Source: Tremella fuciformis (Eukaryota > Basidiomycota > Tremellomycetes > Tremellales > Tremellaceae). From it: a DNA stretch of 64,000 nucleotides. The stretch covers positions 8,122,001-8,186,000 of the forward strand of contig CP136490.1 of the NCBI GenBank assembly GCA_032768795.1. The letters run 5' to 3'. The position numbers were made by a program, and so were the translations under genes. Position 1 is the stretch's first letter. The number at the start of each line of letters is the position of its first letter. Positions 42,424-52,366 of the stretch are shown one piece after another. The notes below the pieces were generated by a model. That model worked only from the letters and a program-made list of their open reading frames with translations. It made no database searches and had not been told where the DNA came from.

Positions 42424-42433
42424 GATAGCGTCG
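42424..42433 (+). repeat. Left target-site duplication of the transposon
   Basis: GATAGCGTCG directly precedes the left terminal inverted repeat and is repeated exactly after the right one (52357-52366). A 10-bp duplication is within the 8-11 bp range made by Mutator-like transposases. Confidence 0.85.
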
Positions 42434-42556
42434 GCCAATTGTATTATTCCGGCAATTTCTCCCATTTATCCCGCAACTTCTTTCAGTGGGGCTCCTCATG
42501 TCCCCCTCAACTTCCTACAATAGACCTTCGATCGCATACATCTAGCCCGCAACTCT
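42434..42556 (+). repeat. Left terminal inverted repeat of the transposon
   Basis: The arm begins GCCAATTGTATTATTCCGGC and contains CATTTATCCCGCAACTTCTT, a CAGTGGGGCTCCTCAT block and, at its inner end, GCATACATCTAGCCCGCAAC. The reverse complement of 52234-52356 matches it over the same 123 positions, best in the outer 66 bases (after the first 15) and the inner 25. Confidence 0.92.
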
Positions 42557-42989
42557 CTCAAATCTTCAACCCGTGCATTGCCGACATCAGATTGGGAGCC
42601 TGAATGCACCGTGATCATACTCGCTTTGAGCTGGAGCTCAATCGCTGCTCACAGTCCTGATCGCAATCCAGAAAGGATGTTGATCGCTGAGGTGGTAACA
42701 GATGATTCCAATGACTCTGCGATTCGTTGTCGATCCAGCTCACCTTTGTCGAATACATCGCTACAGCACACTGATGCATGCTCCCGGAGATCTTGAAGCT
42801 CTTCTCTGCTCGACAAAGTCAGATTTGGACGCGTAGATGGTCAATCAACTGTTTACCTCTGATCGCTGTAAACACCTTTGAGGTGTCCGTGCCCTGATTC
42901 CCACGCGATTTCGCTTGACTTTGTATTCTCACTTTCTCATCCTCTCAGATAGCCTCGTCTCTATCTTCACTAATCTCGCCAAGATCGGG

Positions 42990-45601
42990 ATGCCGCCGCG
43001 ACAACGAGCAACATCGCAGCCACCAGCGTCGCTGGTGGCGACGCATCATGTACCCAGTACGCTGAGCGGCCGAAATGCGAAAGCCTGGCAGGCGGGTGAT
43101 CAGCCTCTCGACCCCATATGGCGGGACGACGCGTCATTGCAGGCATTCGTTGAGAAGCACGGCGCAGTACAGGATCTAAGCCATGTTCTCGACCACTATT
43201 TCCCGAACGCGGCTCGCGATCTTGGACTCATCCCGTACAGACCAGCTGAGAACGAATGGTGGTCTCAAGCGGCTTCGCGGGGGCCACAGTGCTACACCGA
43301 TCAGGATCCAGCTAAGAAGCTGGCCAAAGATTGCTGCAAGGGACGTCTACCTGCATTTGGCTACCAGTGAGTCCGCTCGCAATCAATCTACCATCTAAGC
43401 AGCGTGTTCGGGTGTGTGAATCAATTGTTCGCGGGTGAATCGCCAAGCGATCGCATTCCGGTGGCCAAAGCAGTGCGATCGCACAAGACATAGATCTATG
43501 TCTTGTGCGATCGCACTGTTTTGGCCGCCAGAATGCGATCACTTGGCGATTCGCCCGCGAACACTTGATTTCACAACCCATTGTGAAGAACTTAGTTGAC
43601 GCGCAGGCCGCTCGACGACGAATACGCGTTCGCACCTTGGCATTGCGCAAAAGCCGAAACCGCCGGCAAACCAGTCGTGTGCGTCGGATGGGATCCAGCC
43701 ACGCTCAAAGCCATATCCTGCCAGTACTGCATCTCCACTACGAAGGGCGGATGCGGTTTCTTAGGATATCAGCTCAAACGGGCTATACAACGGCGTCAAG
43801 CGCAGGAGGCGGCACATGATGAGCTCGAGCCGAGCAACTCCGGCGATCGCGAGTCCGATACGGATCGCTCATCTGAACGTACGGATCGCGAGCAGTCCGA
43901 GGGTGAACCGGAGATGTCCGCGGATGAAGACGATCGCACTCGCAATCGCAACAAGGCGCCACCCTCATCAGCGCACAAGACTCCGATCGCTAAGGGTCGA
44001 CACTCAATGCCCAAGACTCCGACTCCTGCGCATCGGAAGGAGATCGCCCGAGGATCGCTAGCGAGCCAGACAAGTCCCGCCAAAAAGAGAAAAATAGGCT
44101 CGTCTACGGCTCCAAAGCTGTCCGATCGCGCTTTGGGAAAGCGCAAAGCTGTCTCTCCCCCTCGTTCGCAAGAGGTATGTTCATTCTCTAGGAGATCGCA
44201 GTGTTTTGAGCCTGATCGCTTACGCACAGACGGACACCGAACGTGATGTTACGGAAGAGCAGCAATTTGATCTCCCGCAATTGCAGCCTGTAAGTCCGAT
44301 CGAAGTGATTTGCCGCGATCGCTAACTTTCAGCCTTTTGAGCTGGCTCCGGGGGACCAGAATCTGCTGTCCGAGCCAGGACCTAGTGCGATCGCTTTCAA
44401 CGTGGATGAATCGCACACGGTCGCGCCAGCCGAGCAGCGATTTGAGCGACCGGTCGCCGAATGGACAAATGAGGACATCCTCGCGTATCGGAAGAAAGCG
44501 ATGAACACGATCGACGAGTTCTTGCGCGAGCTGCCCTCTCAACCTGACGCGTCTTTCACCCGGATGCCAAGCGAAGAGCTGGACACTGAGATTCAATGGC
44601 TCATGGGGCCGTCCGATCAGCCCGGCTCAGCAGGTCCTGCGATCGCAACGGGACCTGCCAAAGAAGGGGCGATCACAGCGGTTAGATTCAGGGAGCCGGT
44701 GATCGCAAACCGAACATCGTCTGCCGGCCCGATCGCGGGACCCGCAAGCACCGATCGCGCTCAGAAAGAGACCGATCGCACCGATTCTGCCCTAGTCGCG
44801 ACTCTGCCTCGCACAACTCATGTCGACCCTGCTCCGTTCGCTGGTCTTCCTGGCGCAGAACAGTTCATCAAATGGCAGGAAGAAATGGGAGACTCGATCG
44901 CTGCTACATCGACTTCCTTGTTTCACGCCTACACGGATATAGCCAACTTGCGAACTCATCTCGAGGAAAAGATGCGGATCGCTGTCACTCAGTGGAGGAG
45001 TACTGCACAAGGGCTCGAGCGATCGCGGGCGATCACACTTCAGCTTGGTGCTCGACTTAAAGAGAACGAGCGTCAATTGTCTGGTCTAGATGGACAGATC
45101 GTGGCTCTTCGAATCGAGCTCCAGCGCAAGGATCATGAGATATCCACATTGCAGTACAAGGCCAAATTTCACGAAACCGAGCTGGCCAGAGCGATCGAAG
45201 CCAAAGAGGTCGCTGAGGGTCGTCACACGGTCTTAGTGAAGGAGCGCGATCGCGCGAGCAAGAGAGCAGACGATGCGGAGATAGCGAAGCAGCAAGTCGA
45301 CGGGTTACTCGGTCGCGCACGCAACGTGATTGAGATCTTAAAAGATCGATCGAATCACACCGAGGACGAGAGCATGCTCATGAAAGAGGACAACAAGAAA
45401 CTTGAAGCGCGACTGAAGGAGACCGAGGCACAGCTTCTTGCTCTGCATCAAGAACACTCAGAGATTCCTGTCGCTGTTCAGACTGAGCTTGCATCTCTGC
45501 GGGCGCGTTGCCAGCACTATGTCGAGAAGTATGAGAGCGGCGGAGATGAGGTGACTGCTCAGGAGGCTGGGCCCTCCACAGCAGCGGTGCAAATTGTGTA
45601 G
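42990..45601 (+). CDS. Transposon companion protein: Cys-rich head, charged linker, coiled coil
   Basis: Four exons (42990-43366, 43607-44174, 44230-44289, 44333-45601) join in frame. The head reads DLSHVLDHYFPNAARDLGLI, then crosses the palindrome-bearing intron to DDEYAFAPWHCAKAETAGKP and ISCQYCISTTKGGCGFLGYQ, whose Cys residues could bind zinc. A charged linker (RESDTDRSSERTDREQSEGE) and basic patches (SPAKKRKIGS, GKRKAVSP) look like nuclear targeting signals. The C-terminal half is a long coiled coil (IVALRIELQRKDHEISTLQY). Arg-Asp and Ile-Ala pairs are over-used because GATCGC is embedded in the codons. The role is unknown; an accessory DNA-binding or assembly factor for transposition is plausible. 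An in-frame upstream start at 42915 is possible. Confidence 0.8.
43427..43562. repeat. 136-bp near-perfect palindrome inside an intron
   Basis: The two arms are inverse copies centred between 43494 and 43495 (TAGA/TCTA). Each arm carries GTTCGCGGGTGAATCGCCAA-type sequence, and AGTGCGATCGCAC occurs in both. Weaker pairing continues to about 43410 and 43579. It accounts for most of the 240-nt intron (43367-43606), whereas other introns of the gene are about 45-55 nt. Confidence 0.85.
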
Positions 45602-45824
45602 CGCATGTGTCTATCCATGTTTGATTTGGAGCTGTACATATCGCGATCGCCAACCTGTATACACATAGACTCCGTTCTCGATTCGTTATGTCTAGATCGC
45701 ATCTGTATATAGTCATGTATCACGCGATCGCTCTGAATAAATCATAGATAGGGAGTGCGATCAGGAGTCGAACCAGCCCACTGCTTCACATGGCTCCTAC
45801 CTATCTACACAGTCTCGCTACTCC

Positions 45825-48800
45825 TCAACAAGCTCTCCATATGTCCTGCCTAACCTCGAAGATGCACTCTTTGAGTGTGGCCCGTTCTTGTTCGCCTGAC
45901 CAGCTCGACCTGCCCTCTGCCCAGAGCACAGCCATGCAGTGCACCCAAAGTGCTCTCCTTAGATTGACTCCCTCGGAAGGCGCTAGTCCCAGGCGACGAT
46001 TCTGCTCTGAATCATCCAGATTTTGTCGACAAGGCTTGAGACCTTGAGCTAAACAGACGGCGGCTGTTGCGGCCAGTGGCCCGCAATTGTAGGAATCCTC
46101 TTGCTCGAACCAGCCGATCGCTTCGCGCCAAGTCGATGTGTTAGGGCAGATAATCCAACCTCGATTGGTATCCTCGTCCACCAGACAGCGCTGAAGCTCC
46201 CATTCGAGACGTCGATCGAGTTGATCGCGCCAGAGAGAGTATAAGTGCGGATGATCCAATGCGCCCCCTTTCCCGTCGTAGAACACCAAGAGGCGTTGCT
46301 CGCCAAAGATCGCCAATGTGCAAAAATGCAAGTTCGGCGCCGCGCTGATAGGAATGAAAGTAACTTTCTTCCTCCAAGCTGCCGTCGGTCCTAGCACTTC
46401 CAAGGGGTAGCGATTCTGTGCGATCGCCAGTCGACCCATCGGGCGATCGATTAGGTCTGCCATGGCGTGTTCGCCCCGCCACGCAGGGGATCGCAGAGAT
46501 GCGGAGATCGCTACATCGACGCTTTGACACAGATCGCTAATCAGCCAATTGGTCCACCACCTTGTCTGTTCCGAGAAATATCTCATGGTGTCATCTGTGT
46601 CCATTCCGAAGGTCCGTCCGAACGTTGTCATTCCCGCGATCACGTTTCCCGACTTGCGCTGTCGCTCCAATTCGCTTTGACCTACTGCGAACAAATCGAA
46701 GGTAACATCGGGCAAGACCGGCACAATGGAGACGAGGGGTCGCACGTCTGCCCAAACTATCTTCTGGTAGCGGACCAACGCCTCTGCCTCAAGAGCGTGT
46801 TGTTCTTCAAGTTTTACGGCTAGCACGGCATAATCAAACTCCACCAGTGGCGGGGCGTTTGTTTTGACCAACACAACCTCGGGCGATTCTGACACTTTGT
46901 TGAGGGACCTGGACACCGCCTGGGACCGTTGTTTTACCCTCTTCGACCGAGCAGCCGCGCCAGCCATCAGGCTAGGAGATGGCGGTGGGGGTACGACACG
47001 TTCGCTGAGGCCTTTTGGGTGTGAGAGTGCAGTTCTTGCCATAGCTGCTTGTTGCAGGTTTCGATTCGAGATCGCGGCGACTATGGGATTGATCTTGTCC
47101 TCTGCTGGCTTGACTGTTGACAAGGACGAAACCGCGATTCGTGGTACGGCTCGTTCGTAGACAAGGTAAATTGGTAGGAACGGTCCTCTAAAGGCGTCTT
47201 GCACGCCACTGAGCCTGGTCGCTCTATGATCGCTGAGTCTCCACCAATTTCCCTCGTGCCGCAAGATCAGACAATAATGCCCCGCACTCGTGTCCACGCC
47301 CGATCGAACAATCACGTACGATAAACTATATCGTACATTTGAGGTCGCTCCCGAATTCGAGTAGAAGAGTGGAATGTCAACCTCATGTTCGATCGTGAAA
47401 GATAGCGATCGCTGAGCCTCGTCGGTCTCGAAGGCCTTCATTGGATATTGAGGATGAATTGCGAACAGATCGCCAAGCTGCGAATAGGCGATCACGGACT
47501 TCAGAAGATCATGGTGCCCGCAGCTCCCACAAGCCAAGGCAAGTGGCGGGAGGGCGTGTACACCCTCAATGGAGTGGCGCACGAGACCAGTCACACTGCG
47601 ATCGAACAGTGAATCGTTCGCCGGGTACGCGGTCTGGCTGATGCCATGAATACTGGTGCAGTCCTGTGATGGCAGATGAGATTCGCATGCCCGACACTGG
47701 AAGCGAACTGCAGAAACGTGCTCAAATGCCAGCCGATAGCTGTGATCGCCGACCAAGGTATCCATGTGTTGGACTAGTTTTTCGAGAAACTCAACTGGAT
47801 CGTGTTGGTTTGACGAGTGGTCATCGATCAGATCGGCATCTGATCATCAGACTTGAGCCGTGACGGCTTCGAATAACTCACTCATGAGACGTTCTTGAAG
47901 GCCCATGAGTGTTACAGCTGCACCGTTCTGGATCGCCTCTCTTGCTTGCAAAATGTACGGGAAAACGGCACCGGCTGGATTTTCCGTCTGAAGAAGTTTT
48001 GCGCGATTCGCGGAGTCCAGGCTATCGAGCGCCGCCAGACGCGACCACATTCCCAGGATACACAGGGCAAAGCAGTCCGTTGATGGATTCAAGAATCCCG
48101 TGGGAGGCAATTGTGGGGTCAATTTTCCCGGTCGCGGAGTCAAGCTTGATCGCTGTGCCTTCTGGTGGGTTGGAAGCTTGTGGGTTCGCGATATGACGTG
48201 AGGAGCAGGACCAGATACTCGAGACGCTTCACCGGACCCCTTTTCTGCATGATCGCTCGCCCGAGCGCCAATTCCCCGGGAGACAGATTGGGCCAGGTCT
48301 TCCGCCTGGTCGCTGATCGCGAGCACGGGTTTATGGGGTACCTCAGTTGTTGCAAAGGGCTTGAGCAGCTGAGTCGAAGGTTGATGTCGTCTTGCGATCG
48401 GCCCAACAGACCACGATCCATCGAGATCGGTCTCAAGCAGTCCATTCTCGGCGTTTGTGTATGTCCAATCAAAGTTGCCCAGAACCTCGTCAATCTCTCG
48501 CTTTGTCTCAGCGCCCGAGACGAACGCAGAGTCATCCCCAGTCCCCTTACCCGCCTGTCCGGCCAATGAGCGCATGTAGCGTTGTATCTTGGCGGAGGAA
48601 TTGAAGGACTTCTGCTCGTAGGTGGTAATGTCATTTGCCGTTTCGAATGCGGCCATTGCCCAGAGATGTTCGCAGCGTTTTCCGGTTTGTTCGAATGCAG
48701 TGCAAGAGCAAAATTGTCGGGCATCGCACTCAGAGTTGCCGTTCGCACCTTGGAGGGGTGCTTCCGAGGCGATCCACCATCCGCAGTACTGAATCTCTTT

Positions 48801-51800
48801 ACCCGTATCTCCAGCGATCGAGAAGACCGGGTTCGCGCGCCCTCGGTATGCCAATGGAACCTCATTTTGGTCAAGGCGAAGGACGCGATCGGCCTCCCAA
48901 GCATTGAATCCGGCGAACAGTTGTCGAACAAGCTTCGGATCAGGTCGCGATCGTTCCAGCCAGTTATGTCTATAAAAGGGGAAGTAGATCTGAAGCAAAA
49001 CCATGATGAGGCGGTCGATTCTGTAGATCAGTCGCGGCGCACCAGGCTGAAATTTTACGCACGGTTTGTTCATCCTGCACAGCAGGAACACGGCGTCGAA
49101 CGTCTTGAATAAAGCCTCCGCATAGTTGTTCGTTGACCACGGCCCGTCTCTGGTGATGTGCCCCGGCATTCCATAGTCCACGGCATGATCCCTCCAGTGA
49201 TCGCTAAACCACGTTCGCAGCAAATAGGAGGAGATGAACTCCCAAAAAGCTTCTCCTTGCCGGCCACCGCCCACCACGCCGCGCATATCATTTTCGAAGT
49301 CTTTCCAGTATTGGTCCCATTGCGATCGATAGGGACATCTTTGGAGTCGGCGAATGAGGCGGAGAGCGGTCTCTGTATGGGTGTCGGAGATGGGGGTCGG
49401 CCCAAAATGCCCTCGCAACACTGCCCTGCAAGACTGCATCAGGTGAAACTGGCAAACTCTGATGCAACAGCCTGGGAATACTGTCAAGATCGCTCGCCGC
49501 TCGGCCCCGCTCGCATCGATCATGAACATGGCGGGCTTGAAGCCCTCCTGTACAATTGCGCGGCAGTTGTTCATAAGGTCTTCGTGGAACTGCGGAAGGC
49601 AAATTGGTTTGCGTTCGCCGTTTGCGATCGCCTTTGCTAGCTTGACAATTGCCTCCTTCAAGACACGCAGGAATGCCGTGTAATCCTCACCTCTGATCCG
49701 AGTATGCACGTTCGCCGCGACTAGATGGTCAATTGACGTGCTTGACTGTTCGCATAGGACTTGCCTGGGGTCATCCGGTGAGTGTCTCCCAACGTAGACA
49801 CCATTGTCAATGGAGCCTTGAGGGAGTTCTTGTTCTTATGCGACGTGTCTAGAAACAGTCCCCGAACCGGGCCGTGAAGGATCGCGGCTTCCAAAGCATG
49901 CTGAGGAGCAATGATACACGAGAAGTCATCATCGAGGCTCTGAGGCATCGCGGCCCGTCCCTCAATCTCAGCAAATCGCAAGCTGCAAGTAAGCATCAGG
50001 TTCATTATGGAGAGACTCACTGAATGATATCACTGTGATGGATTTCCTGTAGCATGGCGATCGCGGCAACAGGGTCCGCGTGCAGCCTCTGGCGACGCAA
50101 TGCGGTGCGAACAGAGGACTCATACACGCGATTCGAGGCAGGCAGGCGGTGGGGTGCTTCTCGCTGCAGAAACTGCAGATGCTCATCGGTGTCACGCTCG
50201 AAGGGGAAGCCCAAGGTAAAGGGCACGAGGGGGTCTAGTCTCTGGCTCGTAAAGCAAGGGGACTGAGGGATCGAGGACAAGAGTGCTGGGTTCAGACCAG
50301 CTGTGTGACTTTTGTGACGGGACACAAGAGATCCATTGCTGAAGAAACTATCTTGGCCGGAAAGTGGCCTCCTTATATAGACAAGAGGGCTATGTACGCC
50401 GAAGGGATTTGCCACCCGTTTTGCCACCCATTCCATGAGAAAAGTTTTCCTGCTGCCGATATTTCTCGAGTGCAAGCGATTCTCCTCGCTGCAGATCTGT
50501 CTATAATTACTGGGAATGGAAAGGTGGCTGAAGGCCGCCGAGTAGGATCACCGGAAAAAGTAGTGACTTCAGGGAAGATCACCGATAAAAGTATTGACTT
50601 CAGGGAAGATCACCGACAAAAGTACTGACTTAAATCGGCGATGTCCCAGAAGAGGTAATGTTTGAGCAGTTCGGTGGAAAAAGTACTGTGTTTTGTAGGC
50701 GAATGGCGTAAAAAGCGGTGACTTGTGTTTGAGATGAGGTCGGTCATGACAATCGGCCTCTATCATGTTCGATTGGAACCCTGAAACTGTCAACTGGTTC
50801 GCTTGCCATGAGAAATCAAACGCACGTATTCGCAGCTGAGTCGGCGTTGTTCCGATTTGACTCGCCAGTCGTTGTAGAAGATTGCGAACGTAACCCGAAA
50901 CTCGCAGACAGGAGAGTGACCATGGTCTCCGGTGACATGTCGGTAAGGTGATCCGACAAACACCTCTCTGGACGTCTCGTACTGTCATTCGCACCTTCGA
51001 TCAGCTGATCGCCCCGTCTTCTTGCTGATCGCTTACCACCAACACCTGCCCGCATTGCTCGTTCGACTCCGCAGTTTGCAATGGACTCGCAAGACGACGC
51101 CTCTTCCTGTGTCGATCCTCCTCATGAGAGGTCCCCACTCTCCGCTCGTCCACTTCATCAGTCGTCACGGGGATCATGCGATTGAAGAACTGCCTTGCTT
51201 TCACATAGGTGACAAACTCCTCAGTTCCGATCGAGCGCGATTGGGCTTTCTCGCCAGGGCAAGCCTCGTCACAGGCTCGCGAACACTTGAATATCGACCG
51301 CCAGACAAGCCGATCTGGCTCTAATCCTGTGCTATTAGGTATGGAGAGATGGAATCGCCTTGATCGAATGTCTGCCGGAATGTATCCAGGAGGATCTATC
51401 GGTCGCACCTCGACACAAGCCGAGTATGTTTGCTGATAGATCTCCCAATCGTGTTCCTGCAAGCTTAGGCAATTGTTGACCATTATTAGAGCTGATGACC
51501 CACGAGAGCGTCGAAGACCTTGGGAAGATCCAAGAGAGCTACTTCCTGCTCGAAATAGGAAGGTGTCTCATGCAGACGATCGTACAGGGAGACATGAAGC
51601 GCGTGTAGCTTGCGATCGAGCCCGGGGATGTCGACCAGGGGCTGTGTCACATACATGACTCGCTCACAAGCTGGCGCAAGCTTATCGATCAGAGCCCGAG
51701 TCCTTCTACCAGCTGATCGCGCTGAACATGGTGACCAAGGCGCGTCCGACTGCTGTGTCGCATGCGACCGATAGGAAGGTGGGACGCTGGAACCCTCAGA

Positions 51801-51986
51801 ATGCTGGCTCGGAGTGACAGCTGCTGCTACGGGAGGGGTCGCCGGAGGAGGGTCAAAGAGCTCATTGGGCCTCTTTTTTGGCCCGTTAACATAGGCCTTC
51901 CGGGGACGCCCTGGGCCTCGACGAGGTGCTTGTGGCACGACACCGCCTGCGATCGCCAGGGCTATAGGCTTCTTGTCGTGAGTCAT
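45825..51986 (-). CDS. MULE transposase fused to USP deubiquitinase and Ulp1 SUMO-protease domains
   Basis: From 51986: an AT-hook (RRGPGRPRKAYVNG); a zinc-like segment (FKCSRACDEACPG); after a long intron, VSRHKSHTAGLNPALLSS. The DDE core has GLFLDTSHKNKNS (first Asp), AMFMIDASGAERRAILTVFP with CQFHLMQSCR (second Asp), and STNNYAEALFKTFD (Glu). A SWIM finger follows (FCSCTAFEQTGKRCEHLWA). TGFLNPSTDCFALCILGMW is a USP Cys box. Intron 47795-47881 (donor GTGAGT) joins LQERLM to IEFLEKLVQHMDTLVGDHSY, continuing the USP: FQCRACESH and LACGSCGHH fingers, then the His box SAGHYCLILR with WWRLSDHRATRLS. The end is Ulp1-like: NLHFCTLAIF, LVFYDGKGG and EQEDSYNCGPLAA (His, Asp, Gln/Cys). One core intron (49721-49764) is GC-AG. 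The N-terminal exon chain between about 51200 and 50400 is not fully resolved. All three enzymatic domains keep their catalytic residues. Confidence 0.85.
50549..50641 (+). repeat. Three tandem 31-bp repeats
   Basis: Units 50549-50579, 50580-50610 and 50611-50641 share CACCGA-AAAAGTA-TGACTT and, in the first two, CAGGGAAGAT. They lie in the unresolved intron or spacer between the AT-hook exon and the DDE exons. They may be transposase binding sites or a slippage product. Confidence 0.75.
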
Positions 51987-52233
51987 TATGCGCGAGAGGT
52001 GTGAGCATGAACATAACACTGCATCTGTACTTTGTTTGTGTCTATGTCTAGGTTCGCCCTCAATCCTGCTCTGAGTCAAAGTCAGGGTTCAGCGTTGAAT
52101 GATAGATGGTGACTCAAGTCGGTGCGATCAGGGTTGAAAATTTTTTGGGGCCAGCGAACAGCCAGATGAGTGCTTCTGACGTACTCTGAGAGGACTAGCT
52201 GCAGTGCAGAGAGCCAATCGCTGCCATATAACA

Positions 52234-52356
52234 AGAGTTGCGGGCTAGATGTATGCAATCAGGGGACTGATGCACGGACTTGAGGGGTAAATGAGGAGCC
52301 CCACTGAAAGAAGTTGCGGGATAAATGGAGGAAATTGCCGGAAAAATTATACACGC
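52234..52356 (-). repeat. Right terminal inverted repeat of the transposon
   Basis: Read as reverse complement it begins GCGTGTATAATTTTTCCGGC and then matches the left arm through CATTTATCCCGCAACTTCTT and the CAGTGGGGCTCCTCAT block, ending with GCATACATCTAGCCCGCAAC. Its length, 123 bases, equals that of the left arm. Confidence 0.92.
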
Positions 52357-52366
52357 GATAGCGTCG
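52357..52366 (+). repeat. Right target-site duplication of the transposon
   Basis: GATAGCGTCG follows the right terminal repeat and is identical to 42424-42433. Removing the element and one copy would restore a continuous host sequence. Confidence 0.85.

Follow-up and report, generated by a model that had tools for sequence, protein, structure and literature searches.

A Mutator-like transposon of Tremella fuciformis whose transposase gene appears to run on into a USP-type deubiquitinase and an Ulp1-like protease

We analyzed a 64,000-nucleotide stretch of the Tremella fuciformis genome (the window; C1:8122001-8186000 of a 28.1-Mb genome in 11 contigs). Judged by its sequence, the region at positions 42434-52356 of the window is a Mutator-like DNA transposon of the cut-and-paste type, with two genes. 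The minus-strand gene of this transposon family seems to specify a single, very long protein, a transposase continued by a USP deubiquitinase and an Ulp1-like protease. The predicted polypeptide would comprise, in this order, an AT-hook-like N terminus, a DDE core, a SWIM domain, a flexible linker, a USP domain (family C19), another linker, and an Ulp1-like domain (family C48). The parts of the gene are given below in window coordinates; the 5' exons were read in a second copy on contig C4 that is free of a long terminal repeat (LTR) insert.

50753..52079, minus strand: remaining 5' exons, read in the LTR-free C4 copy; approximate borders
49760..50020, minus strand: upstream transposase exon, with the first catalytic Asp motif LFLDTSHKNKN at 49826-49858; approximate borders
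47882..49709, minus strand: main transposase exon, with the second catalytic Asp (49497-49526), the Glu (49107-49130), SWIM (48660-48710), the linker, and the USP Cys box (48060-48101)
47795..47881, minus strand: predicted intron inside the USP, 87 nt, phase 1, GTGAGT...CCAG
45825..47794, minus strand: exon running to the stop codon, with the second USP half (zinc finger and His box) and, behind a linker, the Ulp1-like domain at the C terminus
47217..47288, minus strand: USP His box SAGHYCLIL (47262-47288) and the third and fourth critical residues in WWRLSDHRAT
46077..46331, minus strand: Ulp1-like catalytic motifs, His at 46305-46331, Asp at 46266-46286, and Gln/Cys at 46077-46109

Two open reading frames (ORFs) on the minus strand, 47847-49709 (620 amino acids [aa]) and 45825-47765 (646 aa), underlie this model. 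Removal of positions 47795-47881 joined them in phase 1 into a frame of 1265 aa. This intron, with its GTGAGT donor and CAG acceptor, had been proposed in an initial annotation of the window, and we recovered both the in-phase frame and the predicted junction LQERLM-IEFLEKLVQH. The interval assigned to the gene at that time, 45825..49720, did contain the two frames but fell short of the gene, which extends to the first catalytic Asp motif and to further 5' exons beyond it. By eye, an AT-hook-like stretch, RRGPGRPRKAY, was noted at 51891-51923. Since the transposase and the Cys box lie in one exon and the His box and the Ulp1-like domain in the other, a single intron would suffice to produce a single protein. 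The dependence on one predicted intron might also suggest an artificial fusion, either of separate adjacent genes or of host fragments captured recently in the manner of a Pack-MULE. However, the intron splits the USP, so that separate proteins would each hold half a USP, and the same order was found in seven lineages and at 14 of 16 places in the genome, as described below. We consider such an artefact highly improbable.

To place the window copy among its relatives, 20 transposase matches in the genome were reduced to 16 places by merging split matches; C4:135437-135658 was merged with C4:126810-128283 although they lie 7 kb apart. A place was counted as carrying the proteases when matches to them were found at most 21 kb downstream on the same strand. 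Under this definition, 14 of the 16 places had both USP and Ulp1 matches, with the Ulp1 match no more than 5 kb away in 9 of the 14 and at 5.1 to 16.6 kb in the others. At one place on C10 (F3), about 14.6 kb of other sequence lay inside the element. The two places without proteases were a degenerate relative (C4:126810-128283) and a 207-bp match (C10:646165-646371). Chance association or Pack-MULE capture was rejected because 14 of the 16 transposase places retain both proteases in order.

Seven lineages were modelled from the transposase to Ulp1: the focal one, F1 (C3), F4 (C6), F5 (C11), F7 (C4), F8 (C2), and F10 (C5). F3, F6, F9, and a locus at 8.40 Mb on C1 were left out of the modelling. 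F2 (C5) was 99.8% identical to F1 over 10,314 bp, and F3 about 99%. The transposases of the six other modelled lineages shared 34-44% identity with the focal one, and the domain order was identical in all seven. The joining of the two USP halves by an intron recurred: in six of the seven (focal, F1, F5, F7, F8, and F10), the intron was at the point corresponding to focal residue 610-611, and in F4 it was modelled at 595, an uncertain position. Its phase was 1 in focal, F1, F7, and F10; for F5 and F8, the models gave phases 2 and 0, respectively. Within the variable linkers, the splice-aware models included introns that are doubtful; we relied only on introns within conserved parts of domains, and the exact splice sites of the divergent lineages are uncertain. 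With stricter donors and YAG acceptors, F7 had one candidate, which used the donor of the model and an acceptor 30 nt earlier and kept the frame. The last modelled intron of F1 and F2 was rejected as not credible. Frames, intron, and cross-lineage order support the reading as a single transposase-USP-Ulp1 protein.

Two observations concern single loci. In F7 (C4, 2.25 Mb), several GATA-like zinc fingers were seen by eye between the USP and Ulp1; Pfam assigned GATA to one stretch at 2.8e-4, below the cut-off. An isolated Ulp1-like match (41%) at C5:55781-55948 had no listed transposase match nearby and is possibly a remnant or a separated gene.

The ends of the element were located by its target-site duplications and terminal inverted repeats (TIRs).

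42424..42433: left target-site duplication GATAGCGTCG, identical to the 10 bases at 52357-52366
42434..42556, plus strand: left element end, with the TIR arm at 42443-42556; boundary common to the C4 copy
52234..52356, minus strand: right element end, with the TIR arm at 52234-52347
52357..52366: right target-site duplication GATAGCGTCG, matching the left one

The two arms of 114 nt were 86% complementary. The C4 copy, also full, had ends identical to those of the window element and CGTGCTGAA on either side. The duplications of 9-10 bp at these two insertions lie within the 8-11 bp of Mutator-like elements (MULEs). A third focal copy, on C8, was without the left end, and the C-terminal part of its gene was 8.6 kb off. 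In the long aligned parts, the C4 copy differed from the window copy by 1 base in 7756 and 2 in 1605, and the C8 copy by 4 in 3758 and 2 in 1605. Because the copies differ by so few bases, the focal family probably moved recently. F1 and F2 had 61-bp TIRs and 9-bp target duplications (CCTCCAGAG and CTCCACTTC); the same search found no TIRs for F3-F7. Inside the window element, at 43419-43570, lies a near-perfect palindrome of 2 x 76 nt with zero spacer. A 172-nt stretch at this site in the C4 copy matched in inverted orientation too.

The domains were next examined with profile searches, which the initial annotation had named as a check. For the focal protein the outcome was mixed: UCH (the USP profile) scored above its cut-off, MULE and SWIM remained below theirs, and C48 gave nothing in the window copy. 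On the transposase side, Pfam scored the joined protein at 3.3e-4 for MULE and 0.0084 for SWIM. Among five lineages scanned at E ≤ 1, PF10551 (MULE DDE) was found in all five (best, 6.7e-6; focal, 24.0 bits against a curated 27.6) and PF04434 (SWIM) in four (best, 3.5e-4; focal, 17.9 bits against 19.6).

UCH matched the joined protein at 3.3e-5 (24.1 bits; cut-off, 23.9) and was found in 5/5 lineages scanned at E ≤ 1, with a best value of 4e-13. A five-lineage USP profile searched against the PDB gave USP7 as the best match (3.2e-10), over positions 4-283 of 303, from the Cys box to the Asp. At E ≤ 1 this profile matched 98 distinct PDB sequences, and the best 60 of the 98 were USP enzymes except for two TssM deubiquitinase sequences. 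One of the five lineages also had a weak match (0.016) to the SUMO-isopeptidase family C98. In a genome-wide UCH search, the three focal copies (3.0e-7 each), F10 (1.3e-11), and F7 (3.9e-4) exceeded the cut-off. Matches below it came from F6 (0.009) and from the C1:8.40-Mb locus (0.019), and the loci of F1-F5 and F8 were not among the matches listed. The oxyanion Asn (N8), the Cys (C13), the His (H249), and the fourth critical residue, Asp (D265), were invariant in all seven lineages. The catalytic residues of every domain had been described as intact, which was true of these four and of the Ulp1-like His, Asp, Gln, and Cys but not of the third critical USP residue, which is Ser in the focal copy, in place of Asp or Asn, and Asp in the six other lineages. 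According to Keijzer et al. 2024 (PMC10867860), Ser occupies this position in 5.4% of USPs, including the catalytically competent USP16, USP30, and USP45, and it is the fourth residue that is essential in USP1, USP15, USP40, and USP48. Because competent USPs with Ser exist and the fourth residue is kept, the focal USP may well be active despite its Ser.

In the Ulp1-like domain, H80, D97, Q155, and C161 were invariant in all seven lineages, at 28-38% identity to the focal domain. The H-D spacing of 17 and the Q-C spacing of 6 equal those in the yeast Ulp1 numbering. A Peptidase_C48 match was above the cut-off in F1 (1.2e-5) and below it in F8 (0.036). The C48-type motifs align in 7/7 lineages, and the C48 profile exceeded its cut-off in one of them, F1.

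We then looked beyond this genome. Searching with an alignment of the transposase yielded 28 metagenome relatives, 24 of which carried PF10551. Ten of the 28 were inspected: P0001 and P0006 had a USP Cys box in the transposase frame, and the other eight ended before the Cys box region. Since both relatives that reach this region carry the box, at least the transposase-USP joint is not confined to this genome. Outside the genome, what has been detected is therefore the transposase, with the Cys box of P0001 and P0006 as the only sign of the USP. In relatives such as P0022 and P0025, MDSSWRNKNA was found where the focal exon has the first catalytic Asp motif.

Several results weigh against the presence of two working proteases in one conserved chain. 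The USP domains were only 18-27% identical to the focal sequence, and in place of GHY F8 has NHY and F7 has AHN. Pfam C48 had no match in the window copy at E ≤ 5 and none in F4, F5, F7, or F10, and a genome-wide C48 search returned five matches at two places, none of them an element locus. A five-lineage Ulp1 profile retrieved no Ulp1 from the PDB, its best match being an unrelated phosphatase (0.33); a seven-lineage profile gave weak matches to the Ulp1-like SUMO protease 6dg4 (0.2), to phosphatases (0.64-0.75), and to SENP1 (0.83). The single-sequence structure model of the Ulp1 part had a pLDDT of 37 and was not used. When compared with a protein collection, neither the USP-Ulp1 half nor the joined protein had a homologue at E ≤ 1e-3 among the 8000 candidates scored for each. 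Finally, the comparison of F1 with F3 (1075 codons free of stops, with 10 synonymous and 10 nonsynonymous differences; pN/pS 0.31) is based on 20 changes without a significance test, and F3 is split by other sequence. The assignment to Ulp1 is accordingly weaker than that to USP, and yet we regard the domain as very probably a divergent Ulp1-type one, chiefly on the invariant H/D/Q/C tetrad. The pN/pS value, together with the conservation of residues, points to function.

The absent or weak C48 signal in six of the seven lineages and in the genome search, and the Ser at the third position of the focal USP, would also suit a protein in which catalysis has been lost from one protease domain or from both, leaving ubiquitin- or SUMO-binding modules that aim the transposase. 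Against this stands the invariance of the USP Cys, His, fourth Asp, and oxyanion Asn and of the Ulp1 H/D/Q/C in 7/7 lineages, despite identities of only 18-27% and 28-38%, respectively. We judge a loss of catalysis unlikely.

If both proteases are active, a role at the transposon itself can be proposed. The protein would bind the element ends, and perhaps internal sites too. Attached to the transposase, the USP and Ulp1 domains would act on it and on proteins at the element, stripping ubiquitin and SUMO from the transposase and its neighbors. The transposase might then be shielded from proteasomal turnover, and silencing or repair blocks that depend on ubiquitin or SUMO might be lifted during element movement. 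On balance, we lean slightly toward active fused proteases that free both the transposase and the proteins at the bound element of ubiquitin, SUMO, or similar tags. The retention of the domain combination in distant members suggests that it probably helps the elements to jump or to escape silencing.

Two other uses of the proteases were weighed. They might act on proteins of DNA repair or of the transposition complex, and not on silencing, allowing excision and gap repair to be completed with little damage. Such a repair role was suggested for transposon Ulp1 and OTU domains by Bao et al. 2010 (PMC2836005), and the fused layout would carry the proteases to the DNA break. Nothing in the present data separates this idea from the favored clearance of tags, since active proteases are required by both; we give it a lesser but appreciable probability. 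The chain might instead be a polyprotein processed by its own proteases, releasing the transposase or each other, for which one could cite the presence of two cysteine proteases in a single long polypeptide whose linkers are long and variable. A Pfam search of the joined protein at E ≤ 1, however, showed no domain of ubiquitin-like type, and USP and Ulp1 enzymes normally cleave behind a folded ubiquitin-like moiety. We regard self-processing as improbable.

The element is also densely packed with a short motif. GATCGC, counted on either strand, occurred 90 times in the 9.9-kb element, compared with 12.4 expected from dinucleotides (z 22.0). Per kilobase from 40 to 54 kb, the counts were 1, 1, 4, 14, 18, 12, 10, 9, 8, 6, 2, 6, 1, and 0, and the density dropped to background at the element ends. 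For control, eight 10-kb windows were taken from outside the element, seven of them overlapping by half; the best non-repetitive hexamer in these had z 4.4-6.5. GATCGC was found in both orientations, in coding (8.7/kb) as well as noncoding (10.6/kb) sequence according to the approximate exon map, and, within the two main exons, in every codon phase. Its packing is not explained by the reading frame. It was denser on the side of the second gene (14.3 vs 6.4/kb) and absent from the LTR insert. The pattern GCGATCGC occurred 846 times in the 28.1-Mb genome (reversed control pattern, 234) and 16 times in the element. Of 8 focal GATCGC sites, 7 were retained in D, a 93-94% relative, compared with a survival of 64-69% expected from identity, the numbers being small.

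Other lineages were searched for motifs of their own. CTCCGC was common to F1 (z 11.8) and F8 (z 7.4, in 4.1 kb), and in F1 it was raised between the terminal repeats. GTCGAA reached z values of up to 10.0 in windows over F7; this is suggestive only, because the sequence splitting F3 reaches z 9.9 with AATAGT. No enriched hexamer of their own was found in F4 (z 6.7), F6 (z 6.3), or F10 (z 4.2 in 6 kb). An F5 hexamer (z 9.1) was discounted, as it lay mainly at 13-19 kb of the oriented region, amid retrotransposon-like frames.

These motifs raise the speculative idea of self-addressed anti-silencing, in which a DNA-binding protein of the element reads the motif of its lineage (GATCGC, CTCCGC, or perhaps GTCGAA) and concentrates the USP and Ulp1 on its own chromatin. 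The binder might conceivably be the transposase or the product of the second gene, with ubiquitin and SUMO marks stripped only there. Motif and protein would then co-evolve in each lineage as VANC and its motif do, with the isopeptidases as effectors.

The remaining features of the element are an LTR insertion and the second gene.

50190..50751: solo LTR, 562 bp, TGTCAC...ATGACA, in an upstream transposase exon of this copy, with a 5-bp duplication ATCGG
42915..45601, plus strand: second (accessory) gene, convergent with the transposase gene; approximate borders

The insert was missing from the C4 and C8 copies. At least 44 matches to it were found in the genome (best 40 of 119 candidates scored), including six pairs 5.63 kb apart, and because of these pairs we read it as a solo LTR. 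The retrotransposon to which it belongs has many copies in this genome. With an LTR interrupting an upstream transposase exon, the window copy is not whole. An ORF at 50017-50475 on the minus strand extends from the LTR into the downstream exon. The second gene has exons at about 42915-43370 and 44402-45601, the latter with a coiled-coil-like C terminus, and a poorly resolved middle. Its frames had no Pfam family above the cut-off. Its N-terminal domain of about 100 aa matched F1 (1.7e-6) and F5 (1.6e-5) by blastp, and matches among the counterparts of F1, F4, F5, F6, and F7 ranged from 5.6e-4 to 8.6e-30. In F4, F6, and F7, inspection by eye showed a CW(S/A)C stretch in the second exon. Beside the second gene of F5 (C11), a 1305-aa frame on the opposite strand resembles, by eye, an inserted copia-type retrotransposon. 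Among nine flanking ORFs of the window searched with Pfam, one had a diaphanous (formin) GTPase-binding domain, one had WD40/propeller matches, and the other seven had none.

Parts of this architecture are already in print: Ulp1 in Mutator elements, a USP with Transposase_11, and two deubiquitinase types in one Helitron. In the literature searched, with most subscription journals outside it, no description of transposase, USP, and Ulp1 together was found among the papers listed, judged by their titles, opening abstract lines, or passages, in agreement with the initial annotation, which knew of none. Mutator elements with an Ulp1 domain have been reported in hydra, lancelet, Arabidopsis, maize, rice, and melon (PMC2836005), and the KAONASHI-type MULEs with Ulp1 that the annotation had mentioned are indeed published (PMC13317346). 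The present element resembles both in being of Mutator type with an Ulp1-like protease. It differs in having Ulp1 joined to the transposase C-terminally of a USP, no USP being mentioned for these elements or for KAONASHI/KIU in the available parts of the two papers. Arabidopsis KIU, moreover, belongs to a set of three coding genes carried by MULEs of the non-TIR kind (PMC13317346), whereas the present element has long terminal repeats in inverted orientation at its ends.

Closer to the USP half, a Trichomonas vaginalis protein joins Transposase_11 to Peptidase C19 (PMC2836005). It is likewise a transposase fused to a USP-type deubiquitinase, but of another transposase family, and no Ulp1 is mentioned in the available passage. 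Ginger1 has, as here, a C-terminal Ulp1 behind a DDE transposase and TIRs; its core is of the Gypsy-integrase type, and it carries OTU or Ulp1, with no USP mentioned in that same source (PMC2836005). Helitrons with VTD and OTU domains also carry cysteine isopeptidases of two kinds within a single element, although they are rolling-circle elements with other protease families; deubiquitinase activity has been reported for VTD domains, and protection from proteasomal degradation has been proposed for the Helitron proteases (PMC9741609). Mutyl, an ascomycete element of group 35, is likewise fungal and Mutator-like, with a 9-10 bp target duplication and an antisense second ORF, MutB; the word "protease" is absent from the main text of that paper (PMC6446971).

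VANDAL21, with its protein VANC, is also dense in a short element-specific motif. VANC motifs are mainly noncoding tandem repeats in one orientation (PMC5735166), whereas GATCGC is found here in coding and noncoding sequence and in both orientations, a distribution unlike VANC-type noncoding tandem arrays. If bound by a protein of the element, this element-wide packing would represent sequence-addressed anti-silencing outside the plant VANDAL elements. Ubiquitin and SUMO proteases occur in several unrelated transposons, where their role is unproven. That both kinds are kept in the transposase chain across lineages sharing 34-44% identity suggests that the element benefits from the removal of both tags, and the family offers separable domains for testing what such proteases remove and why.

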